Below, piece by piece: positions 31,185 through 64,000 of a stretch of 64,000 nucleotides of DNA. A program made the position numbers and the translations under genes. Under the pieces are notes generated by a model that saw only the letters and a list, made by a program, of their open reading frames with translations, was not told the origin of the DNA and did no database searches. Each line of letters begins with the position of its first letter. The first letter of the stretch is position 1. The DNA comes from Mycobacterium dioxanotrophicus (lineage in GTDB: Bacteria > Actinomycetota > Actinomycetes > Mycobacteriales > Mycobacteriaceae), in NCBI RefSeq assembly GCF_002157835.1, contig NZ_CP020809.1:6386001-6450000 (forward strand), in the 5' to 3' direction.

Positions 31185-32171
31185 ATGCCACGCCGCCGGC
31201 GCCTCGTATCGATTCCCCGAGCACTGGCCGCGCTCGTCGGTGTGGTTGCCCTCACCTTCTCCTCGTGCAGCGGGGTGGCTCAGTCCGAACCCACAGCATC
31301 CAGTTGGCCCAGCGGCGCTTACCTCGGCACCTACGGCAACCGGCCCGCGGCGGAGAAGTTCGCCGCGTATCGGGGTCAAAATCTCGCCATCGTGAGCGTC
31401 TTCCTCGAACGCTCGACGTGGGACGCGCTGCGCCATGACACCTGGGGTGTCGAGAGGTACGCCGGGTTTGCTGGTCGGCTGTCGATCGCAGTGCCGCTCA
31501 TCCCGACGAACGAGTCGACCACCCTGGGGGCGATCGCCAACGGAAGTCACGACGACGATTTCGTCCAGATAGCTCGCAACCTTGTCGCACACCAACGTGG
31601 CGACGCCGACATCCGGCTGGGCTGGGAATTCAACGGCGACTGGTACGGATGGTCAGCATGGGACCCGAAGGCCTTCATTGCCGCGTATCGGCGGGTTGCC
31701 AAGATCTTCCGCCAGGAGAGCCCAGCGTTCACCCTTGACTGGAACGGCAATGCGGTGCAGTCGGCATCAGGCCATGACCCGTTCACGGAGAGCTACCCGG
31801 GCGACGACGTCGTCGATGTCGTCGGCGTGGATGCCTACGATTGGGCCGACAATGGCATCACCGACAGTGAGTCGTTCGCGCGGTGGCGCGACCAGCCGCA
31901 CGGCATAGCCGCTTGGCTGTCGTTCGCCAGGGCCCACCACAAGCCTCTCGCGATCCCCGAATGGGGTGTCGTCGGTGGCACCGACGGGCAGGGCGACAAT
32001 CCGGCCTACGTCCAAGGGATGTACGAATTCTTCCGGCAGAACCACGCCGACATTGCGTACGAGGCCTACTTCAATCAGCAAGCCAGCCTGGCCAATTCGC
32101 TGATCGATCCGGTTCAGATGCCCGCATCCAGCGCCCTGTACGCCGAGCTGTGGCATCGCGCAGGCAGCTGA
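31185..32171 (+). CDS. GH26-like glycoside hydrolase lipoprotein
   Basis: Exported 328-residue lipoprotein with lipobox Cys28 (LTFSSC) and a GH26/clan-A-like TIM barrel. The acid/base Glu148 is in RLGWEFNGDWYGW and the nucleophile Glu259 in LAIPEWGV, both typical of beta-mannanase-type GH26 enzymes. I start at ATG 31185 behind GGGGAG at 31171-31176, since the frame extends 22 codons further without a ribosome-binding site. It lies at the left border of the polysaccharide locus. A role in trimming or releasing the polymer made by the locus is inferred. GH26 also includes beta-1,3-xylanases and lichenases. Confidence 0.8.
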   Translation: MPRRRRLVSIPRALAALVGVVALTFSSCSGVAQSEPTASSWPSGAYLGTYGNRPAAEKFAAYRGQNLAIVSVFLERSTWDALRHDTWGVERYAGFAGRLSIAVPLIPTNESTTLGAIANGSHDDDFVQIARNLVAHQRGDADIRLGWEFNGDWYGWSAWDPKAFIAAYRRVAKIFRQESPAFTLDWNGNAVQSASGHDPFTESYPGDDVVDVVGVDAYDWADNGITDSESFARWRDQPHGIAAWLSFARAHHKPLAIPEWGVVGGTDGQGDNPAYVQGMYEFFRQNHADIAYEAYFNQQASLANSLIDPVQMPASSALYAELWHRAGS

Positions 32172-32180
32172 CCCCCGGCG

Positions 32181-33449
32181 TCAACGCGGGCATTGCGTAG
32201 CCAGCGGTAGAAACCGCATCGGATCAGCCAGGTAGCGCACCGCGCGGTCGATGGTGTGGCTTTCAACGGCGTTGTCGTTGAACGAGATCGAGATGTTTCG
32301 GGTGTCGCCGATCCGATTGTTCAGAACAGTGACGGCGTGCGGACCCGCGGTGTCGAGCAGAGCGGTGAGGGATCGATCACCGCCCATTCGCCACGGTACG
32401 TCGTCGATCATTCGTACGGTGCCCAAGTCGGAGTACATGACGTGAGCGGGCGCTCCGGGCTGATAGGTACTCGCAGGCCCCGGATCGCGCCCGAACGGCA
32501 GCATGGCCCGTGCCGACACCACAGCCATCCCCGCCAGCGGCACCGCCGCCATGACGAGGTCACGTACCCGCGTGCTGACCGCGGACAGGGGGTCATCAGA
32601 CGCAAACGGAACTTCGAGACCGATGATGAAGTTGCCGTTGGCCCGTTGCCGCCGGGACAGGTAGCGCCGACAGTCGAAAGCTGTCATGACGCGGTCGGTC
32701 ATCGACAACCCGGCCACCTGCAACGCTTGCCGAACGATGTACAACCACACTGCGGCACTTCCCGGCGTGCCGGCCTGCGCGCGACGCCAGTCGTGCACCG
32801 CGGCCTCCGCATCGGCGTCGATGTGCGCGATCCGGACCGCAAATGAAGGGGACCACGGCATCGGATCGCCCGCGCCACCGCTGTCAGCGGGACGTTGAAA
32901 CCTCTGTTCGGCTGCGTACCGCACCGCAGGCCGGGCCCACTGCGGATTCGCACCGAACGTGCGGATCACCGACCGCAGCAATGCCAGGGGCGTGTCGTTG
33001 TCGGTGGTCCACCGTGACGTCCGACCGCCGGAATGGTCGAACAACGCACCGATCAGTTCGAGCGCGAAACGTGCGTCACCGAGACCATGGTCGACGTCGA
33101 GTGCGATATGCCGTTCTGAAGCATGGATTTCCAGTGCCGCCCGCGCTCCCGGCCGTCGACGAATGTGCTGCAACACTGCCGCCCGGCCACCCTCTACCAC
33201 CGACCGCGGCAATTCGCGCACCGCCACCAGTTCCGAAGGGGCGTATCGCCAAAGCCGCGTCGCCGGACGCGGATCCAACGCCACCCTGGTGTGGGGTCCC
33301 GCCATGGCGATCCTGGCCAATGCCTCGTCGAGCACCGACGTGTGCGGAACATCCAGTTCGCCGAACAACGCAACGAATCGTGCGCCGGCAAGCATCCGAT
33401 CGGTACCGCTGGCCCATTGCCGCGACTGGGTCCGGCCTTTCGCGATCAT
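32181..33449 (-). CDS. Condensation-domain-like acyltransferase (PapA/WES-type)
   Basis: A 422-residue protein that resembles the CoA-dependent acyltransferase/condensation superfamily used by mycobacteria to esterify lipids (PapA proteins). The catalytic motif HxxxDG appears as ALDVDHGLGDA (around residues 116-126), with the His and a downstream Asp one residue displaced. A later NNRIGDTRNISISFNDN segment fits the second half of the fold. It may acylate a sugar of the polymer or a lipid. No Shine-Dalgarno is seen at ATG 33449; a start at Met19 is possible. Convergent with the GH26 gene. Confidence 0.65.
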   Translation of the reverse strand: MIAKGRTQSRQWASGTDRMLAGARFVALFGELDVPHTSVLDEALARIAMAGPHTRVALDPRPATRLWRYAPSELVAVRELPRSVVEGGRAAVLQHIRRRPGARAALEIHASERHIALDVDHGLGDARFALELIGALFDHSGGRTSRWTTDNDTPLALLRSVIRTFGANPQWARPAVRYAAEQRFQRPADSGGAGDPMPWSPSFAVRIAHIDADAEAAVHDWRRAQAGTPGSAAVWLYIVRQALQVAGLSMTDRVMTAFDCRRYLSRRQRANGNFIIGLEVPFASDDPLSAVSTRVRDLVMAAVPLAGMAVVSARAMLPFGRDPGPASTYQPGAPAHVMYSDLGTVRMIDDVPWRMGGDRSLTALLDTAGPHAVTVLNNRIGDTRNISISFNDNAVESHTIDRAVRYLADPMRFLPLATQCPR

Positions 33450-33692
33450 CTGCGCATCAGTCCCACCTGCACAGCGCGAGCCCCGAACAGCACCCCGTCC
33501 ACATTGTCTTCGGTCACCCTCAGAATCAACTCCGTCGCCCGGCTATCCACTCACTTGTTTGCTGACCTCGGTTCCTGTTGGTCGACAGGATATCGACTCC
33601 ACTGGACAGACACGCCGCGAGAGGTGCGACGATGTGGGGTAGCGTCCAACGGTGCGGCGCTCGGAGGCTCGCAGAGATCGATTTCGCGTTCT

Positions 33693-34505
33693 ATGGCGCA
33701 GGCAAACGAAGGGTGGACGACCACTGTGACGTGCCCGAATGGTCACGACAACCCGGTAAACACGCTGTTCTGCAGAGAATGCGCAACTCAGATCGTGGCG
33801 AAGACCGTCTGCATCCACGGTCACCTCAACGAAGACGACAACCGGTTCTGCAGCCAGTGCTCGGCTCCGGTCGCCGCTCCCATCTCGACGCCGTCGCGGA
33901 CCGGGCGTTGGAACGTCGATCCCACAGCGCGCCACCAATATCGCTACTGGGACGGCGAAACCTGGACCGAACATGTCGTCGACAACGGAAGCTTCGAGAG
34001 CGATGCCGTGCCTGCCCCGGAGCCGCGACCGCGAACCCGGGCAGAAGTCTGGCTGCCGCGAGCGGCCGCGATTGGCATGACCGTCGTGAGCGCATTGCTC
34101 GTTATCGCCGCGTTCAGCACGCTGCAGTCCATCCGGAAGTCCGAACCGACGCCGGCCACGACGGCCGAGCCGATCCTCGCGCCCCAGACCCCGGCACCGG
34201 CGTCCCAGGCCCAACAGCCCCCACGCCAGCCCGGACAGGTCGCCGTCATCGGAGCCTCGTGTCTCCCTGCCAGCCGTACAGCTGTCACCGGCGACAAATC
34301 GGTCGCGTATTGCGAGCATGTGCAAGGCACGGAGTTCTTCGTATGGTCACTGGTGCGGGGCGAGATCACCTACCCGACCAGCGCGGACCCGAGCCAGTTG
34401 ACGGATCCTCCGGTCGCGGTGTGCATGGAACAAACGGGTCGGTCACCGCAGGATTGCGTCGAATACCTCCAGCGGCCAAGCGATCCTGGCGATGGCGGCC
34501 GTTAG
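33693..34505 (+). CDS. Zinc-ribbon/DUF2510 membrane protein
   Basis: A 270-residue protein with two N-terminal zinc ribbons (CPNGHDNPVNTLFCREC and CIHGHLNEDDNRFCSQC), a DUF2510 motif (GRWNVDPTARHQYRYWDG), one membrane helix near residues 125-145 and an outer Pro/Ala-rich linker followed by a small domain with paired Cys. Zinc-ribbon plus DUF2510 plus one helix is common in mycobacterial cell-envelope proteins of unknown function. The start is ATG 33693; no strong ribosome-binding site. Its end overlaps the lipase gene by 14 bases, so the two are coupled. Confidence 0.75.
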   Translation: MAQANEGWTTTVTCPNGHDNPVNTLFCRECATQIVAKTVCIHGHLNEDDNRFCSQCSAPVAAPISTPSRTGRWNVDPTARHQYRYWDGETWTEHVVDNGSFESDAVPAPEPRPRTRAEVWLPRAAAIGMTVVSALLVIAAFSTLQSIRKSEPTPATTAEPILAPQTPAPASQAQQPPRQPGQVAVIGASCLPASRTAVTGDKSVAYCEHVQGTEFFVWSLVRGEITYPTSADPSQLTDPPVAVCMEQTGRSPQDCVEYLQRPSDPGDGGR

Positions 34506-35721
34506 GCCACGTGCGCGGGTCCCGGTCGACTTCGTACTCGTCGTCCTGCTCGTGCTGGCGACGGTGGCGTCGGGATGCAGCGCAGATGGCGGGGACGCAT
34601 CAGCGGCGCCGCCGATCAAGACGCCGCTGCCCGACGTGGCCGCCGAAGCCTGGTCGGCCCGTGGACATGTGCTCGAACGGGCGCCGTTCAACCCGCCGCT
34701 GAACGATCCGGTGATCGGCGACGCGTGGCGGGCGGTGTACACCTCGGTGTCCGGCGTTGACGGCCGGACCCGTGAGATTTCGGGCACGTTTTTCATTCCG
34801 CCCGGCGACCCGCCGCAGGACGGTTGGCCGGTGATCTCCCTCGCCCACGGAACGACGGGAATCGACAACGCATGCGGTCCGTCGACCCATTCCGACCTGA
34901 TGGGCTATCTCGCGGAGGTCCGCGCATATCTGGCCGACGGATATGCCGTCGCTATGACCGACTATGAGGGACTCGGTTCACCGGGCACCCATCCCTACCT
35001 CGAACCGAAGTCCGCGGCGTTCAACGTCATCGACGCGGTGCGCGCACTGCACGAGCTCACCTCGACCGTGTCGCGACGTTGGGTTGCTGCCGGGACGTCA
35101 CAAGGTGGTCAGGCGGTGTGGGCCGCCGATGAACTGAACGCCTTCTACGGCGACGGCGTCGACCTCATCGGCAGTGTCGCGATGTCCCCTGCTGCGAATG
35201 TGACGGGTCTTGCCGACCTGGCCTGGTCGGGACAGCTGACCAACGACCAGGAGATGTACTTTCCGTTACTGATCGAGGGTGTGCAACGGTACAACGCCGA
35301 GTTGGACGAAAGCCGATATGTGCACGGGCGGATCGCCGCCGGAATGGGCATTCTGGCCCAGTGTCAGTCACCGGTCGGAGATTTGCTCAGTAGGGTCTAC
35401 GCAGAAGAGGAACTCAAGCCGGACAGACGCCGCGACGTCGATGCCCTGCGCCGGGCACTGCAGCGAATCGCGCTGCCGCAGCAGCCCCTCACCGTGCCCA
35501 TGCTTGTGGTTTCCGGGGACAACGACCAGACCGTTCGTCCGCAGTGGGTGTCCTCGGCGGTGCAACAAAGCTGCCGGATCGGCGGCCGGATCGAGCACAT
35601 GCAGATCCCCGGTGCCGGCCACGCGGAGCTGCCACCCGACGCGGACAAGACCGTACGGCAATGGATAGCCGACCGTTTCGACGACGTGGCCGCGCCCTCC
35701 AACTGCGCGACACAACCCTGA
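34492..35721 (+). CDS. Secreted lipase/esterase lipoprotein (LIP family)
   Basis: A 409-residue alpha/beta-hydrolase of the secretory-lipase family. Signal peptide with lipobox VASGC (Cys29); nucleophile Ser203 in GTSQGG; Asp in VVSGDNDQTV and His in GAGHAEL complete the triad. The oxyanion region is LAHGTTGID. It starts inside the end of the preceding zinc-ribbon gene. It may remove acyl groups from envelope lipids or from the polysaccharide produced by the locus, opposing the acyltransferase at 32181; that link is inferred. Confidence 0.82.
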   Translation: MAAVRPRARVPVDFVLVVLLVLATVASGCSADGGDASAAPPIKTPLPDVAAEAWSARGHVLERAPFNPPLNDPVIGDAWRAVYTSVSGVDGRTREISGTFFIPPGDPPQDGWPVISLAHGTTGIDNACGPSTHSDLMGYLAEVRAYLADGYAVAMTDYEGLGSPGTHPYLEPKSAAFNVIDAVRALHELTSTVSRRWVAAGTSQGGQAVWAADELNAFYGDGVDLIGSVAMSPAANVTGLADLAWSGQLTNDQEMYFPLLIEGVQRYNAELDESRYVHGRIAAGMGILAQCQSPVGDLLSRVYAEEELKPDRRRDVDALRRALQRIALPQQPLTVPMLVVSGDNDQTVRPQWVSSAVQQSCRIGGRIEHMQIPGAGHAELPPDADKTVRQWIADRFDDVAAPSNCATQP

Positions 35722-35743
35722 TCGCACAGTCGAGGGCCGCACG

Positions 35744-36940
35744 TCATGCGGGATCGAACCTGAACCAGTCCACCAGCATCGTCGCCGGCCAAGGAGTGGT
35801 CGCATCCGGTTGTCCGGAGGAATTGTCGCCGACAGAGATGTTCAAGATCGCGTACATCGGCTGATCGTCAAACACCCACTGCTGGTTACTGGTCAGCATC
35901 GCCTTCGTGTAGGTACCCAAGGTGGTGTTGTCGATACCGATGACCACCTGGCCTGCCGATCGCCGAACCCAGTAGGTGTGGAAGTCCGTGCTGAGGTCGG
36001 CGATCGGACCCTGGGTGCCGATCATGTAGTCGGCGGAAGCGCCGGCCGGACGCTGCACCCACGGCCCGTGCAAGGTTGTGTAGTAATAGGTTGCGAGTTT
36101 GGGCAGCTCCATGAGATCGATTTCGCCGCACTGGGGCCAGCCGACGGTGTCTACGTTCGACCCGAGCAGCCAGAACGCCGGCGAGATGCCTTTCCCCGAC
36201 GGCATTTTGATGCGGGCCGACATCGTGCCGTACACCATGTTCACCTTGCCCCGCGTGACCAGACGACCCGAGGTGTATCCCGTCGACGTCTTCAACGCTT
36301 GAATGATCAAGTTTCCGTTGCCGTCGAGGCGGATGTTCTGAGTGGAGTTGGTGTAGTTCTGAAGTTGGCCGTTGCTGTTCCACTGCCCGGTGTCGTAATC
36401 CCAATATTGGCTGCTGGGTTGGGTTCCGGCGGCGCCGACGAAGTCGTCGAGCACCGCGCCTGCACCGGATGTACCGCCTGTCTGCACGGTCACTCGGTCG
36501 AGCCCGAGCGCCCGGGAACAGTTTCCTTTGCGATACGGGTTGGTGAAAGCCACACTCAGCGTGTGCGTGCCGGCCTGAAGGGCCACAGTCATGCTGTAGT
36601 CCGCCCATGAAGTTGTCGAGACAGCAGTTGGAGACGTTGCCTTTCCGTCGATGGCCACCGTCATCGTTGGCGCGCCCTTACACAGCTGTCCCTTCGCCCG
36701 TATCGACAAGGCGGTCGCCGGGGCTGACAGCGAAATGTTGGTTGTCGCCTGGGCCGTTGTCCACAGTCCGAGTGCCGCACCGCCGGAAGCGGTCTTGTCG
36801 GCGTACACACTGCCGGCCCCTGCCGGAGTCACGACCATGGATTCGGCTTCGAGTGACGTGACCGCAGCCCCCGCCGGGGCAACAGGTGCTGCAACTGCGG
36901 CAACCACCAGACTCACGAGAACTAGGCGCGGATATCTCAC
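35744..36940 (-). CDS. Secreted GH16 glycanase with N-terminal carbohydrate-binding domain
   Basis: A 398-residue exported enzyme: signal peptide (residues 1-26), a beta-sandwich resembling xylan-binding/CBM60-like modules (about 28-155, with ADKTASGG and two Cys) and a GH16 domain (165-398). The active site GEIDLMEL gives Glu273, Asp275 and Glu278. I prefer GTG 36940 with GGAG six bases upstream over an ATG 13 codons earlier that would add a Cys-rich start. It is head-to-head with a second GH16 gene. Substrates of the family include beta-1,3/1,4-glucans and galactans. Confidence 0.85.
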   Translation of the reverse strand: MRYPRLVLVSLVVAAVAAPVAPAGAAVTSLEAESMVVTPAGAGSVYADKTASGGAALGLWTTAQATTNISLSAPATALSIRAKGQLCKGAPTMTVAIDGKATSPTAVSTTSWADYSMTVALQAGTHTLSVAFTNPYRKGNCSRALGLDRVTVQTGGTSGAGAVLDDFVGAAGTQPSSQYWDYDTGQWNSNGQLQNYTNSTQNIRLDGNGNLIIQALKTSTGYTSGRLVTRGKVNMVYGTMSARIKMPSGKGISPAFWLLGSNVDTVGWPQCGEIDLMELPKLATYYYTTLHGPWVQRPAGASADYMIGTQGPIADLSTDFHTYWVRRSAGQVVIGIDNTTLGTYTKAMLTSNQQWVFDDQPMYAILNISVGDNSSGQPDATTPWPATMLVDWFRFDPA

Positions 36941-37187
36941 AAGTACGCTCCATCGACGACAGCAAAGACACCCAGGCACATGCAGTCCGGCGATTCCCGC
37001 GCCAGCGGAACAAGTATCCCTGCGATCGCTAACAGCACACCATTCACTTCGGTAACAGCTTGGCCGCAGTTCGAGAACACCGCCTGCCCGCGCAATGTCT
37101 CGGCGCCCGAAGTCCGACTACGTCAGCAACAATTCGGCTCTCCGGCGCCGGGCGACCTTCAGTCGCCTCAGCCCCTATTGTTTGTTC

Positions 37188-38015
37188 GTGCACACTCGAC
37201 CGAGACTGGCAATCGCACAGGCGGTAGCGGTGTTGATGTTGGCCGCGTGCACCAACGCCTCGGGCGGCGATGCCACACCTCGACCGGCATCGCCGCCACC
37301 ACCCTCACCATCCGACGTGTTCGACGGATTCGACGGCCCGGCCGGGTCTCGGCCCAACACCAAGTTCTGGAGCTACGACCTCGGCAATCTGAGCCCAGAC
37401 AACCATGAGCTCCAGACCTACACCGATGCCACCGCCAACATTCGCCACGACGGCAACGGACACTTGATCGTCCAAGCGTTGAAGACCCCCACCGGTTACA
37501 CCTCAGGGCGCCTGATCACCCAAGGCAAGATCCCGATCCTGTACGGAACTGTCTCCGCACGAATCAAGTTCCCGTCCGGCCAGGGAATCTGGCCGGCGTT
37601 CTGGCTGCTCGGTTCAGACATCGACACGGTCGGCTGGCCACAGTGCGGCGAGATCGACGTCATGGAACTCGTGAACACGGGCACCACCTACAACGTGACA
37701 TTGCATGGGCCGCAAGGAAAATCGGACTACTCGACCAACGGCCTGAGTAAGACCGGGCTGATCACCGACCTCAGCAAGGATTTTCACGTCTACTGGGTGA
37801 CGCGACAGCCTGACAGCATCACCATCGGAGTCGACGGAACCGCGTTGGCAGACTTCACTCCCTCATCGCTGCCCGAGGGAGCGACCTGGGTGTTCAACAA
37901 GCCGATGTATGCCGTGCTGAACGTGGCTGTGGGCGGGGACTGGCCGGGACCACCCGACCAGTCGACCCACTTCCCGGCGACCATGCTGATCGACTGGTTC
38001 CGGTACACCCGCTGA
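37188..38015 (+). CDS. GH16 glycanase lipoprotein
   Basis: A 275-residue lipoprotein (lipobox LMLAAC, Cys21) with a Pro-rich linker and a GH16 domain closely related to that of the divergent neighbour: shared QALKTxTGYTSGRL, WPQCGEID and FPATMLIDWFR segments. Active-site Glu155, Asp157 and Glu160 in GEIDVMEL. It lacks the carbohydrate-binding module. I start at GTG 37188, directly before the signal peptide; the frame is open upstream but without a ribosome-binding site. The two enzymes probably arose by duplication and may cut the polymer encoded here, one free and one membrane-anchored. Confidence 0.83.
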   Translation: MHTRPRLAIAQAVAVLMLAACTNASGGDATPRPASPPPPSPSDVFDGFDGPAGSRPNTKFWSYDLGNLSPDNHELQTYTDATANIRHDGNGHLIVQALKTPTGYTSGRLITQGKIPILYGTVSARIKFPSGQGIWPAFWLLGSDIDTVGWPQCGEIDVMELVNTGTTYNVTLHGPQGKSDYSTNGLSKTGLITDLSKDFHVYWVTRQPDSITIGVDGTALADFTPSSLPEGATWVFNKPMYAVLNVAVGGDWPGPPDQSTHFPATMLIDWFRYTR

Positions 38016-38067
38016 AGTACCGATCAGTCACCTCGAATCACTTTGCTGGTCCGGCACGTTCGCGCGA

Positions 38068-38128: not shown

Positions 38129-38962
38129 ATGAAGCGACCTGATGATGATTCGGCTGGAAATACCATTCCCATACTCATGTACCACTCCGTCAGCGACACT
38201 GCAGCCGCGTCCATCCGCGGACTGTCCGTTCGCCCCAAAGCGTTTGCCGAGCAGGTGGCGTACCTCGCCAACAACGGGTTCACCGGTCTGACGTTCGGTG
38301 AGCTGTGTCGGCTTCGACGATCCGGAGAGCCGCTTCCGCAGCGCCCTGTCGTCCTGACGTTCGATGACGGGTACGCCGACCTGGTCGAGGAAGCCTTGCC
38401 GGTGCTGACAAGCCATGGGTTCCCCGCGACTGTGTTCATCACGACCGGATGGTTGGACGATGCCGGTCAGCGGGCCGCCGGCACGCCGCCGGACCGCATG
38501 TTGACGTGGCGTCAGCTGGCAGTCCTGGAGCAGGCCGGCGTCGAGATCGGCGCGCACAGCCACAGCCATCCGCAATTGGACCAGATACCCGTGAAGCAGC
38601 TGCGGGCCGAACTCGCCGATCCCAAGAGCCTTTTGGAAGACCGTCTCGGTCACACCGTCGCGACACTGGCTTATCCGTACGGGTATTCCAGCCGGCGGGT
38701 CCGCGAGATGTCGCTCGAACTCGGTTACCGCAACGGCGCTGGTGTGGCCAACGGAATCGCCTCACCGGGCAGTGACCCCTTCCGGGTTCCGCGGCTCACC
38801 GTTCGCCTGTCCACGCCGATCAACAGATTCGCCGAGACGGTCAATCAGCAACGAATCGGCGTGAACTACGCACCCACTCGCGCACTCACGGCGGGTTACG
38901 CCGTGGTGCGCCGGAGCCGGTCGGCGCTGCGCGCCATGCGGGACAGCACACACCGCAGCTAG
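38129..38962 (+). CDS. Polysaccharide deacetylase (CE4 family)
   Basis: A 277-residue NodB-domain protein. Motif 1, TFDDGY, gives catalytic Asp79 and metal-ligand Asp80; motif 2, HSHSHP (residues 143-148), provides the metal His pair; the later AYPYG segment is motif 3. It removes N- or O-acetyl groups from an amino-sugar polymer. AAGAGG lies eight bases before the ATG. No signal peptide is seen at the N-terminus, so it may act in the cytoplasm or be membrane-associated. Its presence suggests that the repeat unit contains an acetylated (amino) sugar. Confidence 0.88.
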   Translation: MKRPDDDSAGNTIPILMYHSVSDTAAASIRGLSVRPKAFAEQVAYLANNGFTGLTFGELCRLRRSGEPLPQRPVVLTFDDGYADLVEEALPVLTSHGFPATVFITTGWLDDAGQRAAGTPPDRMLTWRQLAVLEQAGVEIGAHSHSHPQLDQIPVKQLRAELADPKSLLEDRLGHTVATLAYPYGYSSRRVREMSLELGYRNGAGVANGIASPGSDPFRVPRLTVRLSTPINRFAETVNQQRIGVNYAPTRALTAGYAVVRRSRSALRAMRDSTHRS

Positions 38963-44005: not shown

Positions 44006-44012
44006 GGCGTTG

Positions 44013-51972: not shown

Positions 51973-52077
51973 TTGTGGTCCTCGCCGACGTCGAGACGAT
52001 CGGGCTGAACTCTACTCTGACCAGCACGTCAAGGGGATAGGGTGAGAAACGACATCAGTCGACGCCAAGGAGACGAC

Positions 52078-54384: not shown

Positions 54385-54402
54385 CGAGCCTCTGCTGCGG
54401 CG

Positions 54403-55449: not shown

Positions 55450-55631
55450 TCGTCGATCCTCTTTCGGAAGGGGGGTGATTCGCCTCGTACCCGTTATCGC
55501 ATCACACCACCAGCACTGTTTTCGGTGTTTCACGATCGAACGTGTGCGCTGCCCCGTGATCGTCGATATCGATGCCCCACTTCCCGGGCAAAAGCGCCTC
55601 GGCTGATCGACAGAACACCGATGATCCTTAC

Positions 55632-56207: not shown

Positions 56208-57965
56208 TCACGACACCGCCGACGCGCCGGCAGAATGAGGCGGGCCACCCCGACGGTGAATAGGGGTGACGGTCCGGTCTACGGAAAACTGCCCGTTTCG
56301 CGCCGCCACAAGTCGATCGGCCAGCCGGAGTCCCAGCGCTATACCCAACAACGTCGGATTCGCCTGGCCAGAAGTCGGGAATACGGACGTGCTTGCAACG
56401 TAGAGCCCCTTGACCCCGTGAACCTCGAGATTCCGGTCCACGACACCGCCATCGGGGGTCTCAGACATGCGTGTCGTGCCGACCTGATGGAGGCCACCGA
56501 CCAGTTTCAGATCACGGTGTATCAACTCCTCCACGTCGTCGCTGAGCCACTCCACATGTCCGACAGCATGCTCGCGCAAGTGCGCGTCCACTTGCCCTAA
56601 CGCCCGGCGCACACCCTCGTAATCGGCCTCGGTGAAGCACATGTGGGTGCAGATTCGGCGCATCCCGAGCGCGTCCCGTTCGCTGGACAACTCCACCCGG
56701 CTTGCCCAATGAGGCAGATGCTCGCCGTGATATTGCAGCAGATAGCGGTTGTCCGGGCTGCGAACAACGAAGCCGGGGGCCTTTCGCCCTCTCCGGAGGA
56801 AGCGTGCATAACAAAACGTGACAGCGAATCCCATGGACGGCAGCAGGTCTCGCAGCACATTGCATAGATGGGCACCGATCTGCGGAGCCAGGCCAGTCTC
56901 GATGTGTTGTTCGCGTATCGCCTGCGCCAGCAGGAACCTGCCTATCGGAGAGATCAGGGCGAGGTACACACCTGAGAGCGCCCCACTTCGATGCTCCGGA
57001 TTGCTTATCGGTGGATTGACCAGCCAGACAGCTGCATTGGGCATACCCAATCTCCGTTGCAGCTGCGGACTGAAGGTGAAGCGTCGGCGGACATATACAC
57101 CCTCACTGTCGCGCTCATGCGCGTGAATGACACTGTCGTCGGCGAATTGGGCTACCGCCACCCGACAAACGACATGCGACATGTACCAGTGCCCGAGGTG
57201 ACCGCCCGCGTTGCCCAGGCCGCCAGGGTGACGGCGATCCGACACGAGCAACAGCCGAGTAGCCTCCAAACCGCCTGCGGCGATCACGTATTCCGTTGCG
57301 ACCACCGTCCCCACCCGGCCGTCGAGCGTCTTGACCACAAGGTGGTCGACCCGGTCGCCTTCATCGGTTGTCACGATCTCGACGCAGGTCAATCCGGTCC
57401 AGACCTCGGGACCCGAGACGTCCCGCAGCGCCGACGCGTACGTCCGTCCGAACCGCGTGGGCAGGGACCACCGTTCCAGGTCGCTGGTCCGCACAGCGTC
57501 GTCCGGAAGGCCGGTAACCATGTCGCGGTGCGCGATCTCCGGAATTTCACGCGCGTTGAAGGCCGCTCGACCACACACGGCCCAGTCACATGCCCGCTGC
57601 CAGTACGGTTCGACGTCGTCGTAGTTGATCGGCCACGGCGCGTGAGCGGTGATACGCCGGTCCTCGAAATCGACGGGATCGAATTTGACGCAGCGCCCGC
57701 CCCAGAGTGCGGTGGTGCCGCCGAGTTGTCGACGGACGGAGACCTCACTGCGCAAGTGGAAGTAATCGTTCTGGGGCGAAGCCGGTACCGCCAGATCCTG
57801 CGTCACCGGATCCTGATGCTCGAGACCGCTTTCGATGAGTGCCACCCGGACACCGGCTTTCGCCAGTTCGAGCGCGGTGACGATGCCGATGGGGCCTCCT
57901 CCGACGACGACCACATCGGTCTCGATCACGGAACCAGTGGCGAAGTCCTCCCGGCGACGGATCAT
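56208..57965 (-). CDS. GMC-family FAD oxidoreductase
   Basis: A 585-residue glucose-methanol-choline oxidoreductase. The N-terminal VVVVGGGPIGIVTALELAK binds FAD and is followed by GGTTALWGGRC. The C-terminal GGLHQVGTTRMSETPDGGVVD and TSGQANPTLLGIALGLRLAD contain the catalytic His/Asn region. The ATG overlaps the stop of an 18-codon leader ORF (ATGA). Family members oxidise alcohols, often sugar hydroxyls; oxidation of a polymer sugar or precursor is a reasonable but unproven role. Last gene of the leftward operon that starts beyond the right edge. Confidence 0.85.
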   Translation of the reverse strand: MIRRREDFATGSVIETDVVVVGGGPIGIVTALELAKAGVRVALIESGLEHQDPVTQDLAVPASPQNDYFHLRSEVSVRRQLGGTTALWGGRCVKFDPVDFEDRRITAHAPWPINYDDVEPYWQRACDWAVCGRAAFNAREIPEIAHRDMVTGLPDDAVRTSDLERWSLPTRFGRTYASALRDVSGPEVWTGLTCVEIVTTDEGDRVDHLVVKTLDGRVGTVVATEYVIAAGGLEATRLLLVSDRRHPGGLGNAGGHLGHWYMSHVVCRVAVAQFADDSVIHAHERDSEGVYVRRRFTFSPQLQRRLGMPNAAVWLVNPPISNPEHRSGALSGVYLALISPIGRFLLAQAIREQHIETGLAPQIGAHLCNVLRDLLPSMGFAVTFCYARFLRRGRKAPGFVVRSPDNRYLLQYHGEHLPHWASRVELSSERDALGMRRICTHMCFTEADYEGVRRALGQVDAHLREHAVGHVEWLSDDVEELIHRDLKLVGGLHQVGTTRMSETPDGGVVDRNLEVHGVKGLYVASTSVFPTSGQANPTLLGIALGLRLADRLVAARNGQFSVDRTVTPIHRRGGPPHSAGASAVS

Positions 57966-58018: not shown

Positions 58019-58043
58019 CGAAACCTCCCTGTCGTCAGGTCCA

Positions 58044-58063
58044 GAACCGTATCCCCGCGGTTC
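58044..58063. promoter_or_regulatory. Small hairpin upstream of the leader ORF
   Basis: GAACCG (58044-58049) and CGGTTC (58058-58063) can pair around an eight-base loop in the 60-base gap between the epimerase and the leader ORF. It could be an attenuator, a processing site or chance. Confidence 0.3.
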
Positions 58064-58073
58064 CTCAGGTTTC

Positions 58074-59057
58074 CTATCGCGGTCTGATGCTCTCCCGCGT
58101 ATAGAACTCATAGCATCGCCGCAACCCGTCATCCAGGCTTACCTCAGGCCGCAACCCCGTGACGGCTTCCAACCGGACCGTCGAAGGGCACCGCCGAATA
58201 TGGTCGTGAGGGCGCGCCTGCAGGTACACCGGCGCGAATCGCCGTCCGGCAATTTCGTGGAGCCGTTCCGCCACACACCTGATCTCGACTTCGTCGTCAC
58301 TCCCGACATTCAGAACGGTGTTCTGGACCCGTTCGGTCGCCGCGAGCACAAACCGGACATGGTCACGCACATAGAGAAACGCCCGAGTCTGCGACCCGTC
58401 GCCGATAATCGTGAACTGCTCGTCGTGGACGAGTTTCCGGATGAACTCGGGTATCACTTGTCCGTAGCCGGACGTATCCATTCGTTCGCCATAGGTGTTG
58501 AAAAATCGCAGAATCAACCAATCGATTCCCTGGCTCTCTGCGTACAGGCGCGTGTAAAACTCCCCCATCGCCTTACCCGCGGCATACGAATCCCGATCGG
58601 CCATCGAACGCAGCACGATGTCGTGATCTTCTGGAGTCGGGAAAACACTCGCCTGCCCGTACACCTCCGACGAGGACGCGTAGATGAGCTTGCACACATC
58701 ACGGCAGCCGGCCAGCACCTGGACCAGCCCTCGCGACGACTCGCTGTTGACGTGAAGGACCTCCAGCGGGCGCTCGTAAAAATATGCGGTGCCATTGATC
58801 GCCGCGTAGTGAAAAACGGTCGTGACGCCCATTTCACGGATGATCTGGCCGAGGTGATTGCGATCGGCCGCCGACAGCAGGTCGAGCTTCTCGAAACTGA
58901 AGCTGGGCGACTTCAGGCATGTCACGAGGTTCTCCATGTCCCCGCGGAACAGATTGTCGATTCCGACAACCTGCCAACCGTCTACGACCAGTTGATCGCA
59001 GAGGTGCGAGCCGAGAAAGCCGGCAGCACCGGTGACCAACGCGGATCGTTTCGCCAT
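58074..59057 (-). CDS. NAD-dependent nucleotide-sugar epimerase/dehydratase
   Basis: Extended SDR of 327 residues. GAAGFLGSH is the NAD motif; YASSSEVYG and the catalytic pair in DSYAAGKAMGE (Tyr and Lys) follow, then LRFFNTYGERMD. It acts on a UDP- or GDP-sugar (epimerase, decarboxylase or dehydratase); UDP-glucuronate decarboxylase- or epimerase-like sequences are nearest by eye. ATG 59057 follows the UDP-sugar dehydrogenase stop by one base, so the two probably act in series. Confidence 0.85.
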   Translation of the reverse strand: MAKRSALVTGAAGFLGSHLCDQLVVDGWQVVGIDNLFRGDMENLVTCLKSPSFSFEKLDLLSAADRNHLGQIIREMGVTTVFHYAAINGTAYFYERPLEVLHVNSESSRGLVQVLAGCRDVCKLIYASSSEVYGQASVFPTPEDHDIVLRSMADRDSYAAGKAMGEFYTRLYAESQGIDWLILRFFNTYGERMDTSGYGQVIPEFIRKLVHDEQFTIIGDGSQTRAFLYVRDHVRFVLAATERVQNTVLNVGSDDEVEIRCVAERLHEIAGRRFAPVYLQARPHDHIRRCPSTVRLEAVTGLRPEVSLDDGLRRCYEFYTRESIRPR

Positions 59058-59058
59058 A

Positions 59059-60438
59059 TCAATCGCCACCGCATGGATTCCGGAAACCAAGGCCGAAATA
59101 GCTCACGCCCTCGATGTCTACCGCCGGCCGCCAGATATTCCAGCAATCGTAGATCACAAGGCCGGGCTGGGCGTGGACCAGCAATTCTCCGAGACTGGTG
59201 CGATCTCCTAGGGCGGCGATTTCGGGCGCCCTGGCCGCGATCACAACAGCGTCGATGTCACGAAAGACCTCCGGCGACAACCGGTCGAATCTGTCCTCGA
59301 CCGGGACGTTGAGCGATGGCGGCATCCGCGTGTAACTGTTGGCGCCGAGGTGGGAATCATAGATCCGCACCTTGGCATCGGGAAGGCGGCGGCGAATCAC
59401 GTCGACGAGGTCGATTCCGAAAGAGAGACGATAATCGTCAACGTCGCTCTTGAAGCTCATACCCATCACGAGCACACGTGCGCCGTGGTGTCGTTTCAAT
59501 TTCCCCAGGGTCCGCCGCAGCACGTCAGCGCAGTGGTCGGCAAGTGCGTCGTTCGCCTTCCGGCCGTAGTACCACAGCGATCCGAATCCGCGGCCACTGG
59601 CCGACGCCCCGAAGGATTCCTCCAGAATGTAGGGGTCCTTACCCAGGCAGTACCCCGACACCGGACCGGGCGCCGGTATGGCATTGCGCGGATAGTCCTG
59701 GTTGCAGCCGGTGATGACTTCCAGAGCGTCGATGCCGTTGCCCTCCGCCAGCAGCGCAAGATCGTTGGCGAACGCGAAAAGCGTACTGCGGAAAGAATTG
59801 TCGATCAGCTTGCAGGTCTCCGCTGTGCGTGGTTTCGACACTTTGATGAGGCGACCGCCGACGCGGCTGAACAGGCTGCTGGTACGTTCGTACGCCGCAT
59901 CCGAATATGTCCCGATGATCTTGGGCAGTGTGCGTTCCTCGACGACAGCGTTCCCCTCGGCGAGTCGCTCAGGAACGTAGGCCAGGTGGAAGTCGATTCC
60001 TTCCGTCAGATCGTGTTTGAGTTCGATGTGCTCTCGGAGACGATCTGTTGTCCCGATTTCGACTGTCGGCCGCAGCACGATCGTCACTCCGGGACGCACG
60101 TCGGTGGACAAGATGCGGTCGACTATGCGCGACAGGGTCATGAATGCCTCGTGGGGCCCACTGGGATACGGGCCGCCGACGGTGATAACGATGAAGTCGG
60201 CCCGGCTGAGCACCGGTGACGCCTCACGGTCCGGCAGTGGATGGAACGCCGTACCGAGATGGCGGTCCAGGAGGTCCTGCAGTGATGGCTCGGTGAATGG
60301 GCAGACGCCCATCGCAAGCGACTCGATCCGCTGTTCATCAACATCGATGCCAAACACATCGAGGCCGGAATCGGCGGCAACAAGGGCCTGCGGCAACCCG
60401 ACTCGACCCAAACCGAAGAATGCGCAGGTGTGGTCCAT
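59059..60438 (-). CDS. UDP-sugar 6-dehydrogenase (WecC/WbpA-like)
   Basis: Nucleotide-sugar dehydrogenase of 459 residues that oxidises C6 of a UDP-hexose (UDP-GlcNAc, UDP-ManNAc or UDP-glucose) to the uronate using two NAD+. The N-terminal FFGLGRVGLP is the NAD motif, YVPERLAEGN resembles the SPERxxxG segment of WecC, and the catalytic Cys264 is in SGYCLGKDPY. ATG 60438 has GGAGT upstream; the frame is open a further 87 codons that overlap the preceding gene in a non-conserved way. It provides an acidic sugar for the polymer. Confidence 0.88.
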   Translation of the reverse strand: MDHTCAFFGLGRVGLPQALVAADSGLDVFGIDVDEQRIESLAMGVCPFTEPSLQDLLDRHLGTAFHPLPDREASPVLSRADFIVITVGGPYPSGPHEAFMTLSRIVDRILSTDVRPGVTIVLRPTVEIGTTDRLREHIELKHDLTEGIDFHLAYVPERLAEGNAVVEERTLPKIIGTYSDAAYERTSSLFSRVGGRLIKVSKPRTAETCKLIDNSFRSTLFAFANDLALLAEGNGIDALEVITGCNQDYPRNAIPAPGPVSGYCLGKDPYILEESFGASASGRGFGSLWYYGRKANDALADHCADVLRRTLGKLKRHHGARVLVMGMSFKSDVDDYRLSFGIDLVDVIRRRLPDAKVRIYDSHLGANSYTRMPPSLNVPVEDRFDRLSPEVFRDIDAVVIAARAPEIAALGDRTSLGELLVHAQPGLVIYDCWNIWRPAVDIEGVSYFGLGFRNPCGGD

Positions 60439-60467
60439 TGGGACTCCAGACTGGTGTGTGACGGGTT

Positions 60468-61775
60468 TTATGAACGGGTCGCGGATAATCCGCTGTGCAT
60501 GTGACGGTCCGAACGGCGCCGCCCGAGTAGTGGTTCGACAAGATCCAGGTAAATGGCACGCTGAGCGTCCCACCGGTACGGAACACTGATTCGCCCGGCA
60601 TGCTCGACAAAGTCCTTCGCCAGTGCCGGATTTCGCTCGACGTCCCTTATCGCACGAGCCAGATCGGCAGGGTCTCCCGATTCGAAATATTTGAAACATG
60701 TTGGCGGAAAATACGCTTCGACTGATCGGGTACGCGACATCAGAACGGGCACGCCCATCGCGATGAAGTCGTACATCTTGTGGCAGTGGGTGACGTCACG
60801 GAATGCGTCGCGTGTCATGGCGACCACACCGAAATCGGCATCGCTGATCGCCGTGAGGAGTTCGTGCATCGGGACGTAGCCGTGGAAGCTGACGCGATCC
60901 GCCAGATCCAGTTCGCCGACGAGGTTCTTCAAGTCGGGAACTGCGCTGCCCTCGCCGTACACGACGAAGCGAAGCCCCGGTATGTCGTCCTTGAGCAGGG
61001 CGAGTGCGCGGATGACGGTGTCATGACCGTATCGCGGCTCGATGGACCCGTGGCAGATCAGCGTGAAGCGGTCGTCGTCACGGCCCCGATGCGCGTACCT
61101 GCCGCCGTCGAACACCGACTCGTCGGAGGAATTGAGGACGATGCCGATTTTCCGGGATGGCGTGCCACGCCGGACGAATCCCTCCTTCTGCTGCTCGGTG
61201 CATGTGATCGCGACGTCGGAGAAACGGATGCTCAGCTGTTCGGCTCGTGCGATCGCGCGGCAGACGAACGATTCCAGCGGCACGTCGAATTTCGTCGCGA
61301 AGAATTCGGGCATCGTCTCGACCAGATCCAACACCACCCTGGCGCCGCACAACTTGGGGACCAGAGCGGCGAACACAAGCGTGTCCGGCGGCGAATTGAC
61401 CTGCACGACTGCATATCTACGCAGGAGTTGCCGTGCGGAGATCAGCGCCGCAACCGCCACGAAGAAAGCGGCATACTCAACCAGATATGTCACCTTGCCT
61501 CGCCGGTGCCGACGCATCGGGAGCCGGCAGACCCGGACTCCGTTCGCTTGCTCGAACAACGGCTCGCCGGGCCGCCTCATACACAGTACGTCGACGTCGT
61601 GGCCCATCGACGCCAATGCCTTGGCCTGCCTCGTAACCCGGGGATCCAGGGGGTAATAGCCCTGTCGGATCATGCAAATCGTCGCCACGCGTCGCTCCCT
61701 GCACATCGCCGCCGCACCAGTTGCGTCGAGGTCTTCATCCACCGGATCGAGGTCGCCGCGCTCATCGGGCCCCAT
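60468..61775 (-). CDS. GT4 family glycosyltransferase
   Basis: GT-B glycosyltransferase of about 435 residues. Segments MIRQGYYPLDPRVTRQAKAL, VQVNSPPDTLVFAALVPKL, CHGSIEPRYGHDTVIRAL and YDFIAMGVPVLMSRTRSV match a GT4 subfamily and also the N-terminal half of the fusion protein at 52078, its paralogue. It starts at ATG 61775 (a GTG precedes it directly), overlapping the sugar-transferase gene by 14 bases. It probably adds the second or later sugar onto the lipid-linked unit. Confidence 0.86.
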   Translation of the reverse strand: MGPDERGDLDPVDEDLDATGAAAMCRERRVATICMIRQGYYPLDPRVTRQAKALASMGHDVDVLCMRRPGEPLFEQANGVRVCRLPMRRHRRGKVTYLVEYAAFFVAVAALISARQLLRRYAVVQVNSPPDTLVFAALVPKLCGARVVLDLVETMPEFFATKFDVPLESFVCRAIARAEQLSIRFSDVAITCTEQQKEGFVRRGTPSRKIGIVLNSSDESVFDGGRYAHRGRDDDRFTLICHGSIEPRYGHDTVIRALALLKDDIPGLRFVVYGEGSAVPDLKNLVGELDLADRVSFHGYVPMHELLTAISDADFGVVAMTRDAFRDVTHCHKMYDFIAMGVPVLMSRTRSVEAYFPPTCFKYFESGDPADLARAIRDVERNPALAKDFVEHAGRISVPYRWDAQRAIYLDLVEPLLGRRRSDRHMHSGLSATRS

Positions 61776-62412
61776 CACCTCGCAGCACCGCCGGCACGGT
61801 CCGCATCAGGATCGCGAAGTCACCGAACAGCGTCCGCTCACGGACGTAGCGCACGTCGAGCCGAAGCATGTCGAGAGTGCTCACGGTGCTGCGACCGCTG
61901 ACCTGCCACAGCCCTGTCACGCCGGGGCGAACGTCGAACCGTTCGCCGAACTCGCCGGGAAACATCTCGGCTTCCCACTCCAGACATGGCCGCGGGCCCA
62001 CCAACGTCATCTCTCCCCGCAGTACATTGACCAGCTGCGGCAGCTCATCGAGGCTCGTCCGACGCAAGAAAGAGCCGAATCGCGTGACGCGACTGTCGGC
62101 GTCGAGCTTCCAGCTCCCGCCACGCGAGACCTCGTCACCGCGCAACTCCCGGCAGACCAACTCGCGATGTGGGGTGTCATCGCAGCCGGCCTGCATCGTG
62201 CGGAACTTGTAGAAGCAGAACGTTTCTCGCGCGAGTCCCACTCGCGATTGCCGGAATATCGCCGGGCCGGGGCTGCTCAATCGGATGACGGCCCCGATGA
62301 ACAGCAGCAGGGGCGACAGCGCCACGAGGACGGACCCCGCGATCAGCAGGTCCGCGCAGCGGCGCACCACCTGGTCGGGGCCGTTGTTCACAGCTTTAGC
62401 CGGTGCCGTCAT
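61762..62412 (-). CDS. Initiating undecaprenyl-phosphate sugar phosphotransferase (WbaP C-terminal type)
   Basis: Short (216-residue) phosphoglycosyltransferase of the monotopic superfamily, without the N-terminal WbaP helices. One membrane segment (residues 20-42), then FYKFRTM, the SLDELPQLVNVLRGEMTLVGPRP motif and RPGVTGLWQVSGRS. It transfers a sugar phosphate from a UDP-sugar to polyprenyl phosphate and so starts the repeat unit. Overlaps the polymerase gene by 17 bases and is followed by a GT4 gene. A strong marker for a lipid-linked polysaccharide pathway. Confidence 0.93.
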   Translation of the reverse strand: MTAPAKAVNNGPDQVVRRCADLLIAGSVLVALSPLLLFIGAVIRLSSPGPAIFRQSRVGLARETFCFYKFRTMQAGCDDTPHRELVCRELRGDEVSRGGSWKLDADSRVTRFGSFLRRTSLDELPQLVNVLRGEMTLVGPRPCLEWEAEMFPGEFGERFDVRPGVTGLWQVSGRSTVSTLDMLRLDVRYVRERTLFGDFAILMRTVPAVLRGDGAR

Positions 62413-63820
62413 CGGTCCTCACTTCAACTGCCTTGCCTGCAACGATTCCCAGCAGCACGAACACCAGGTCGCCGGGCCCGCGCAGGTAGAGATGCGAGTC
62501 CAGCAGCGACAGGACGATGATCATCCACCACGCCACGACGAGCGCGGATGCGCATGCAGCCACACCGTCGGTGCCGACGCTCAGCCTCCGGCCGATTCGG
62601 ATGACGACCCTCGACAGCGCGATGAAACCGATCAACAGCGGCACGCCGCCGATCCAGAGGAACTGCAGATATCCCGATTCGAGATAGATGACCTTGCGCC
62701 AGGTGTCTGGAGGGACCTTCACCGAGTTCGGCGACACGCCGATGAGGAACCGCCCATTGTGGAGCAGATCGGGGAGATACAGGTGAACGACGTTGTCCCA
62801 TCTCACACGCCAGCTGTGCGGAGGAAAACCACCGCCCTCGAACTTCTCCAGACGGCTGAGCAGGGCAGGCGCACCAACCACAATCGCGAGTACCAACAAC
62901 GGCATGAGCCGCAGGACGAACACCGATGCTCTCGGAATGAGTCGGATGAGCATCACGCCGACGAAGAACGCGCCGATCAGGGTCGAGAACTGCCCGGCCG
63001 CCAGCATGCCTGCCACCAACAAAACCCCTGCCGCAACCGAACTCCGTCGGCCAACAAGACCTCGCACTCCCGCTGTGACGAGGACGATCAATCCGATCAG
63101 GACGTAGTCGCCCGTCGCGATGGGGTTCGACAGCGTCGTCGTCGCGCGGTCGACTTCCTCCGGCCAAGCGGGATACCACACGGCCAGAAACCCCGGGAGC
63201 GGTCCGAGTTTCATGCTCTGAATGACGGCGAGCACAGCAATGCCGAGTGCGCCTCCGACGATGAGGCGAATACACCAAAGCACCTGTGCCGGTGTACGTA
63301 CCGTGTTGCGGACCAGCAGCAGCAGCCCGGCGAGCTTGCACATGGGCAGCACCGCGGCGATGTCCGTCGGTCCCGGGATGGTACCGCGCAACAACAGCGA
63401 GGCGATCGGCCAGACAGTGCTCAGCAGAGCGAACGCGGCGAGTGCCAGGTCGAGCGGACCGATCCGGAGTTGCATGGGTGCTCCCCGTATCACCCGGACA
63501 TAAGCTCCGCCCAATGCTCCTGCGATGAGCAACACCAGAAATGCCTCGTTGGGTCGCAGCAGCGGGACGAACGCACCGCGGCCGATGCCCGCGATGAACG
63601 GCAGCGTCGCCAGGTACAGATACGTCGCCCAGATCGGCTGCCACGCAACGAGACCCAACACACCGATACCTGCCACAACGAGGATGGCGATCGGTCCGAT
63701 CCCGGCCGCGACAAGACCTGCGCCTACCGCGCAACCGAGTGCGACGATCGAAATCCGGCGGGACCGGGTCCGATCGAGCACCGCTTGCGGAGGTTCGTGA
63801 ACCACGACGTCAACGGTCAT
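62396..63820 (-). CDS. Wzy-like O-antigen/exopolysaccharide polymerase
   Basis: Polytopic membrane protein of 474 residues with 11-12 helices and a large outer loop around residues 320-390, containing LEKFEGGGFPPHSWRVRWDN and GRFLIGVSPNSV, the pattern of the O-antigen ligase/polymerase family. The start overlaps the stop of the partial gene at the window edge (ATGA). It would link repeat units at the outer face of the membrane. A ligase function cannot be excluded, but with an initiating transferase and a flippase in the locus a polymerase fits best. Confidence 0.83.
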   Translation of the reverse strand: MTVDVVVHEPPQAVLDRTRSRRISIVALGCAVGAGLVAAGIGPIAILVVAGIGVLGLVAWQPIWATYLYLATLPFIAGIGRGAFVPLLRPNEAFLVLLIAGALGGAYVRVIRGAPMQLRIGPLDLALAAFALLSTVWPIASLLLRGTIPGPTDIAAVLPMCKLAGLLLLVRNTVRTPAQVLWCIRLIVGGALGIAVLAVIQSMKLGPLPGFLAVWYPAWPEEVDRATTTLSNPIATGDYVLIGLIVLVTAGVRGLVGRRSSVAAGVLLVAGMLAAGQFSTLIGAFFVGVMLIRLIPRASVFVLRLMPLLVLAIVVGAPALLSRLEKFEGGGFPPHSWRVRWDNVVHLYLPDLLHNGRFLIGVSPNSVKVPPDTWRKVIYLESGYLQFLWIGGVPLLIGFIALSRVVIRIGRRLSVGTDGVAACASALVVAWWMIIVLSLLDSHLYLRGPGDLVFVLLGIVAGKAVEVRTDDGTG

Positions 63821-64000
63821 GCCGGCACCCCCCGTCGGCGGGTGACATATGCGTGCAGAGTGAAGGCGAACAACGCGAGCGCAACCGTCGAGCTGCCGCC
63901 GACGATGAGGACAAGTCCGATCCGGTTCACGTGGAGCATCTCCAGGACCAGCCTGCCGCCCGCAACCAGCGGCAGCATGACCATCGAGGAAAGCACCGCA
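63817..64000 (-). CDS. C-terminal part of a membrane protein, truncated by window edge
   Basis: Sixty residues before a TGA at 63817, overlapping the polymerase ATG. They form one to two hydrophobic helices (LVLIVGGSSTVALALFAF) with a basic end (YVTRRRGVPA). It looks like the tail of a polysaccharide flippase or chain-length protein, but no diagnostic motif is in the window. It shows that the leftward operon begins beyond the right edge. Confidence 0.6.
   Translation of the reverse strand, partial: AVLSSMVMLPLVAGGRLVLEMLHVNRIGLVLIVGGSSTVALALFAFTLHAYVTRRRGVPA

Follow-up and report, generated by a model that had tools for sequence, protein, structure and literature searches.

A variable surface-glycan locus with a predicted Wzx/Wzy-type cassette inside the sterol cluster of Mycobacterium dioxanotrophicus

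The stretch of Mycobacterium dioxanotrophicus DNA studied here (the window: 64,000 nucleotides, positions 6,386,001 to 6,450,000 of contig NZ_CP020809.1, or G000:C1:6386001-6450000, in an 8.08-Mb genome of five contigs) carries most of a surface-glycan locus of about 38 kb, situated in the gap between the sterol genes hsd4B (MaoC) and ltp2. We consider it probable that this locus is one allele of a site at which relatives carry other blocks of genes or none, that its predicted product is an acidic polysaccharide of Wzx/Wzy type, and that its type is switched when the sterol genes on either side recombine. The notable feature is the position, a fixed but variable site within the sterol cluster, rather than the biosynthetic kit found there. 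Open reading frames (ORFs) were picked by third-position GC and named by Pfam, NCBIfam and PDB sequence matches. The locus runs on the same contig from 31119 to 68749, past the window end at 64000; an initial annotation of the window had placed it at 31185 to 64000, so both limits had to be moved outwards. It contains an initiating sugar phosphotransferase (PGT), a polymerase of WaaL/RodA fold, two flippases, a kinase-less Wzz-like protein, several glycosyltransferases, amino-sugar and uronate enzymes and a pyruvyl transferase (Table 1). As that annotation had stated, sterol genes lie directly upstream, namely kstD and then hsd4B, which ends at 30561. On the right, after 68749, a PE/PPE-like pair (69668-71605, weak Pfam scores) is followed by ltp2 (71681-72841) and by side-chain genes, whose presumed names were given by position and similarity. 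Since sterol genes stand on the left, and ltp2 and the side-chain genes resume on the right, the glycan genes interrupt the cholesterol cluster. Third-position GC is 0.760 in the locus (28 genes) versus 0.855 in flanking genes (22 genes), both being hand-selected sets. Rv3540c of M. tuberculosis we take to be ltp2. The equivalent site in that species is between Rv3538 and Rv3540c, where PPE63 sits, hsd4B being Rv3538 and PPE63 Rv3539 (PMC6429209).

The two boundary genes are widespread: matches to MaoC were found in 275 of the 297 genomes of the genus (E<=1e-105), and matches to ltp2 also in 275 (E<=1e-170). The gap was surveyed in the best-scoring 150 genomes per gene, and 77 of the 297 genomes were in both sets, a sample that favours genomes nearest the query; MaoC and ltp2 lay on one contig in 71 of them and on different contigs in six. 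Among the matches listed, the genes were convergent in all 71, with a gap of 15 bp to 56.6 kb that exceeded 10 kb in 21 genomes directly and in one more (G077) if its single contig is circular. Twenty gaps above 10 kb (that of G159 included) and two small ones were fetched, G124 and G077 being left out. In these 22 loci the sterol junctions flanking the gap were constant, the kstD-MaoC one spanning 7-17 bp between match ends (20 measurable) and the ltp2-chsH1 one -1 to 29 bp (15 measurable). Glycan genes were identified individually in 16 of the 20 large gaps. In 15 they came from tblastn searches that used proteins of the window itself as queries, a choice biased towards such finds, and in one (G037) from a Wzy_C match inside the gap and a GT4 domain. 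In a pooled scan of 29 ORFs from G152, G094 and G127, one PGA_cap, one GT2 and one deacetylase domain appeared, without attribution to a single genome. In G077, Wzz and Wzy_C matches lay inside the wrapped gap.

Content at the site differed among close relatives. In the nearest ones, G108 and G212, kstD is 96-97% and ltp2 98% identical to those of the window genome, and the shared part of the 41.1-kb interval amounts to 8.5 and 5.1 kb, respectively; at 90% identity or more, it is limited to a 2.0-kb PE/PPE stretch. Close relatives with 95-98% identical flanking proteins thus share little of the window's allele. The modules themselves are found again at this site in several genomes. The same flanking genes enclose differing glycan content in relatives, which is the pattern of a fixed-site, exchangeable capsule locus. 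Such loci include the pneumococcal dexB-aliA and the enteric galF-gnd loci, which share with the window site conserved flanking genes and exchangeable glycan content; the window site differs in that its flanks are sterol-catabolic and that one allele holds two modules. Because relatives carry other blocks or none at the site, the sugar coat is likely exchanged like bacterial capsule types, and homologous recombination in the flanking sterol genes would swap the glycan alleles. Among the titles listed by searches of the open-licence literature, none dealt with a Wzx/Wzy locus or with a variable site within the sterol cluster of mycobacteria, which is weak evidence of absence, most subscription papers lying outside that literature.

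The initial annotation had read the locus as being of Wzx/Wzy type, and for the cassette that we call module B this reading is supported by the polymerase fold, the MurJ-like flippase, the Wzz-like protein, three Wzy homologues fused to PF02397, and the joint presence of PGT, Wzx and Wzz matches in 39 of 57 related loci. In 45 of these 57 a Wzz-like match lay near Wzy. The polymerase gave no Pfam or NCBIfam match; its predicted model has a WaaL/FtsW/RodA fold, which agrees with the Wzy-like call. Of the two flippases, the one at 42695-44062 has just a weak match to PF01943, below cut-off, and the second, a MurJ-superfamily protein at 63817, exceeds the PF03023 cut-off. Wzz, tyrosine kinase and outer export genes had been suggested as partners to look for in the flanks: the Wzz-like gene, below cut-off, was located just past the window end, and neither a BY-kinase over cut-off (TIGR01007, none; best 44.6 versus 108.05 bits) nor any Wza-family match (PF02563, none) was found in the genome. 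For these reasons export of the Group 1 capsule (Wza-Wzc) kind was rejected.

The kit is not foreign to mycobacteria, an idea that we rejected on the following counts: PF02397 occurs in 231 of the 297 genus genomes, and Wzz and Wzy_C exceed their cut-offs in 88 and 105 of 148, respectively. Because these families are common in the genus, finding a Wzx/Wzy locus in a mycobacterium is no novelty in terms of sequence, and the oddity implied by the initial annotation was not borne out, though the window's own Wzy is rare (3 of 297 genomes, its own counted). Judged by eye among the matches listed, Wzz and Wzy_C matches lay within about 3 kb of each other in at least 34 of the 148. A scan of genome contigs with the single Wzy sequence found no relative. 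The cassette recurs at the same site in G159, Mycolicibacterium sp. CR10 (NZ_STGE01000021.1), which we count as the same genus. Beyond the genus it is a conserved operon: the Gfo/Idh-aminotransferase-Wzz-Wzx-Wzy-PGT-GNAT cassette of Saccharopolyspora, Pseudonocardia, Geodermatophilus, Actinomycetospora and Streptomyces has the same genes as module B at 21-71% identity, and many of the 57 loci keep the gene order of the window. Within the 10 kb fetched around these loci, ltp2 was matched in one of the 57 (Mycolicibacterium sp. CR10), and there was no sterol flank elsewhere.

A comparable cluster is wps-3 of Actinoplanes missouriensis (PMC13390465), compared here by described domains and not by sequence. 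Like the window locus, it combines a DegT aminotransferase, a GT4 enzyme, a Wzz-like protein, Wzx and an O-antigen-ligase-like Wzy in one cluster, together with a BioF2-like acetyltransferase, a PheA/TfdB-type FAD monooxygenase and a deacetylase; unlike it, no PF02397-type or Gfo/Idh protein is described for wps-3. Further differences are the WlbB-like enzymes and the second module of the window locus, and its position in a sterol cluster. Deletion of wps-3 left sporangia normal (PMC13390465).

Regarding the sugar, the Wbp/Wlb pathway of Pseudomonas and Bordetella leads to UDP-2,3-diacetamido-2,3-dideoxy uronic acids, and the locus has candidates for all four of its steps (6-dehydrogenase, 3-dehydrogenase, aminotransferase and N-acetyltransferase), although none reaches an equivalog cut-off, no 2-epimerase domain was found among the locus ORFs scanned, and some 10 kb separate the hexapeptide gene from the aminotransferase-Gfo/Idh pair. 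In several distant loci the hexapeptide gene is grouped with this pair and the PGT; it was matched in 12 of the 57 loci. The dehydrogenase at 59059 matched UDP-ManNAcA dehydrogenase (4r16, E 1e-41) and Cap5O (E 2e-38) more closely than UDP-glucose 6-dehydrogenase (3vtf, E 1e-22), which makes a plain UDP-glucose dehydrogenase less likely. The Gfo/Idh protein scored best as a UDP-GlcNAc 3-dehydrogenase, under cut-off, and matched PDB 3q2k over residues 72-404 (E 3e-18); the best PDB matches of the DegT aminotransferase were 2oga (E 1e-92), QdtB (E 3e-83) and WbpE (E 3e-81). Given the four candidates and the grouping of the hexapeptide gene with the pair and the PGT in distant loci, a 2,3-diamino sugar, perhaps as its uronate, is predicted as the first or an early sugar. 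The uronic acid of the initial annotation is thereby narrowed: a 2,3-diamino (acetamido) sugar or its uronate appears more likely than plain glucuronate. Its suggestion that the product is possibly aminoacylated found no support beyond the FemAB/BioF2-like GNAT domains.

The following pathway can be proposed for module B. The Gfo/Idh dehydrogenase, the DegT aminotransferase and an acyltransferase (WlbB-like hexapeptide or BioF2-like GNAT) would generate a UDP-2,3-diamino-2,3-dideoxy sugar, with 6-oxidation to the uronate perhaps coming first. The PF02397 enzyme would place the first sugar phosphate on polyprenyl phosphate, GT4 enzymes would extend the lipid-linked unit, and the MurJ-like Wzx would flip it. 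The WaaL/RodA-fold Wzy would then polymerise the flipped units, with the kinase-less Wzz-like protein setting length, and the polymer would have to be exported through the mycomembrane.

The left part of the locus contains a second set of genes, module A (about 34.5-47.5 kb), which recurs at the same site in G233, G186 and G244 without the Wzy cassette, mostly at 43-76% identity. It comprises the lipase, GH16, deacetylase, GT2-GT2, pyruvyl transferase, flippase 2, small membrane protein, GT-C and GT2a genes; by tblastn of the gaps, the pyruvyl transferase match was not found in G244, nor the deacetylase match in G233 or G186. The window allele carries both modules. The locus, which the initial annotation had taken as one polysaccharide pathway, probably consists of two glycan modules instead, and the role of module A is probably to make or decorate a second glycan that is pyruvylated. 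The GT-C model (30-row alignment, pLDDT 82.6) resembled OST, AglB, PglB, AftD, ArnT and AftA in Foldseek (best E 2.8e-9), and at 54% identity or more the enzyme occurs in six of the 297 genus genomes, its own included. As a guess, the GT2a/GT2b copies may have mediated the joining of the modules. The protein at 44013..44774 is presumably DUF1616-like, and the one at 32181..33449 is, from a motif read by eye, possibly an HxxxD acyltransferase.

The gene types named in the initial annotation are all present, with PF02397, PS_pyruv_trans, Polysacc_deac_1, two GH16 (50.5 and 67.9 bits), GT2, GT4, UDP-sugar dehydrogenase and epimerase matches over Pfam cut-offs. Its GH26 call holds at a borderline score. 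By hydropathy, the GH26-like protein has a hydrophobic leader and the deacetylase ORF (38129..38962) has none. Between 31119 and 38962, the GH26, GH16 and lipase genes with hydrophobic leaders, and the deacetylase, possibly serve to trim or release glycan.

Table 1. Predicted genes of the locus and its left flank (coordinates of the window, continued past its end)
Feature	Coordinates	Strand	Basis
kstD, left flank	27921..29699	+	FAD_binding_2 287 bits
MaoC hydratase (hsd4B type), last sterol gene, left boundary of hotspot	29701..30561	+	MaoC_dehydratas and MFE-2 N-terminal domain
GH26-like protein, hydrophobic leader	31119..32171	+	PF02156 20.9 bits, cut-off 20.2 (borderline); leader by hydropathy
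Unknown-family protein	32181..33449	-	no Pfam or PDB match; homologues in G108, G212, G233, G186, G042 gaps
DUF2510/zinc-ribbon membrane protein; true start probably later	33123..34505	+	PF10708 28.2 bits
Secretory lipase/esterase (LIP), module A	34492..35721	+	PF03583 53.1 bits; 54-56% identical in G244, G233, G186
CBM60-GH16 secreted glycosidase, module A	35744..36979	-	Pfam over cut-off
GH16 secreted glycosidase, module A	37095..38015	+	Pfam over cut-off
Polysaccharide deacetylase, module A	38129..38962	+	PF01522 99.1 bits; of three module A relatives, match in G244 only
Two-domain GT2 glycosyltransferase, split over two reading frames	39015..41328 (39015-41090 + 41026-41328)	-	main ORF Pfam; N-terminal piece 21.5 bits, below cut-off 23.3
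Polysaccharide pyruvyl transferase, module A; real start probably near 42700	41325..42971	-	PF04230 115.8 bits
Flippase 2 (Wzx-like), module A	42695..44062	-	PF01943 16.1 bits, below cut-off 28.2; 9 hydrophobic segments (simple hydropathy); 61-64% identical in G244, G233, G186
Membrane protein with C-terminal soluble domain	44013..44774	-	no Pfam match; conserved in G244, G233, G186
GT-C fold polyprenyl-linked glycosyltransferase, module A	44759..46621	-	predicted model and Foldseek
GT2a, dolichol-phosphate-mannose-synthase-like polyprenyl-P-sugar synthase	46736..47521	-	best PDB match 5mlz E 1.1e-14
GT2b, tandem paralogue of GT2a, at seam of modules A and B	48277..49050	-	68.8% identical to GT2a over 231 aa
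FAD monooxygenase	49793..51214	+	PF01494 57.9 bits
Exported lytic-transglycosylase-like protein (label by eye)	51175..51972	-	no Pfam or PDB match; match near Wzy in 16/57 related loci
GT4 fused to BioF2/FemAB-like GNAT, module B	52042..54384	+	PF13579, PF13692, PF13480, PF02388; C-terminal half 51% identical in G159
BioF2-like GNAT acyltransferase, module B	54403..55671	-	PF13480 74.8 bits; match near Wzy in 39/57 loci
Hexapeptide N-acetyltransferase, WlbB/WxcM-like	55572..56207	+	PDB 4mzu E 4e-46, 3mqg E 1e-43
GMC oxidoreductase	56208..57965	-	PF05199 80.7 bits; 44-46% identical in G244, G233, G186
NAD-dependent sugar epimerase/decarboxylase	58074..59090	-	PF01370 167.4 bits; PDB UDP-glucuronate decarboxylase 4lk3 E 8e-40, UDP-glucose 4-epimerase 4zrm E 2e-36
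UDP-sugar 6-dehydrogenase, nearest N-acetylhexosamine group; real start near 60440	59059..60699	-	TIGR03026 251.8 bits, cut-off 189.8
GT4 glycosyltransferase	60468..61778	-	PF13579, PF00534
Initiating sugar phosphotransferase (PGT)	61762..62412	-	PF02397 192.9 bits; sole PF02397 match in genome
Wzy-like polymerase, WaaL/RodA fold	62396..63820	-	predicted fold
MurJ-superfamily flippase (Wzx1), end in window	63817..65424	-	PF03023 106.3 bits, over cut-off; TIGR01695 104.5, under its 235.55 cut-off
Wzz-like protein	65431-66372		PF02706 15.5 bits, cut-off 25.5; two hydrophobic segments; some homologues named chain length determinant/GumC
DegT aminotransferase	66369-67478		PF01041 364.9 bits
Gfo/Idh dehydrogenase	67475-68749		NF040723 172.7 bits, cut-off 450

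Inserts were also observed on the other side of the PE/PPE pair. In G233 (19.2 kb), G186 (15.1 kb) and partly G206 (4.4 kb) the insert lies between this pair and ltp2, while the PPE-ltp2 distance is 48-86 bp in 12 other measurable gaps above 10 kb; inserts hence occur on both sides of the pair. In G027, G139, G082, G141 and G098, Wzz and Wzy_C matches were seen by eye some 12-40 kb beyond ltp2, away from the gap, perhaps at a second variable site. In G019, G056, G066 and G084, whose MaoC was outside the best-scoring 150, a Wzz match lies no more than about 18 kb from ltp2, towards the gap, accompanied by Wzy_C in G056 and G084.

Several results weigh against an exchangeable Wzx/Wzy-type allele, in addition to the leaning of the survey towards near relatives. 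Pfam scans of the locus ORFs showed no integrase, the window has no tRNA, and the two locus ends share matches of 10-11 bp but no long repeat, and the exchange mechanism is for this reason a guess. The gap of G009, in a scan pooled with that of G037 (42 ORFs), appears to hold phenol/alkene hydroxylase genes, which are catabolic and not glycan genes. The modules are not cleanly bounded, because the GMC gene (56208) lies among module B genes here and its homologues lie with module A in G244, G233 and G186. The Wzz-like protein falls below its Pfam cut-off, searches of the genome with the PF02706 and Wzy_C profiles gave no match, and fold alone cannot separate a WaaL-type ligase from a Wzy polymerase. 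Finally, the GT2 gene that spans two frames here is a single 814-codon stop-to-stop ORF in G244.

These results bear on three other explanations. The gap may simply collect random DNA, as the sterol genes converge there, with glycan genes present by chance and no capsule-type switching. The G009 genes fit this, as do transposase and integrase-core domains in the pooled gaps of G152, G094 and G127, but glycan genes in 16 of the 20 large gaps, though the choice of query proteins favoured such finds, and the recurrence of the same modules at the same site argue the other way, and we regard this explanation as unlikely. Somewhat less probable still is that the locus makes a lipid-linked or acylated oligosaccharide, a lipooligosaccharide-like glycolipid and not a polymer, the Wzy-like protein being a WaaL-type ligase. 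Its best fold match is indeed WaaL ligase, and the GT-C enzyme, the pyruvyl transferase, the lipase and the presumed HxxxD acyltransferase suit glycolipids. On the other side stand the Wzz-like matches near Wzy in related loci, the fusions of Wzy homologues to PF02397, and a Pfam scan of the locus ORFs in which no mas-type polyketide synthase appeared. M. smegmatis is known to have pyruvylated glycolipids (PMC6801904), which also favours the glycolipid.

KstR-like palindromes, sought with an assumed consensus, numbered seven in the window versus 0.23 expected (5437, 9501, 10641, 16526, 22016, 27978 and 54133); six lie in the sterol cluster (5.4-28 kb) and one inside the GT4-GNAT gene. None was found between locus genes within the window, so that, as far as this consensus can show, nothing there points to control of the locus by KstR. 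If the island were decayed or silent, its acquired genes no longer yielding glycan, this would suit this result, the split GT2 gene and the tandem GT2 copies, but it is improbable, since the other locus ORFs are full-length with third-position GC bias in frame and the GT2 split, a real break or an assembly error, may be the latter.

An exchangeable surface-glycan allele is accordingly the explanation that we prefer. Discussions of mycobacterial surface glycans usually assume a fixed set (alpha-glucan, arabinomannan, mannan and species glycolipids). As a tentative extension, mycobacteria may have serotype-style surface polysaccharides, with cassettes replacing one another as alleles at a single fixed position within the cholesterol-degradation cluster, and homologous recombination in the sterol flanks altering the coat without harm to cholesterol catabolism. 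Should the gap in the sterol cluster prove to be a capsule-type locus, a single genomic site could reveal the surface type of many mycobacteria, which would matter for phage adsorption, biofilm, typing and survival in the environment.

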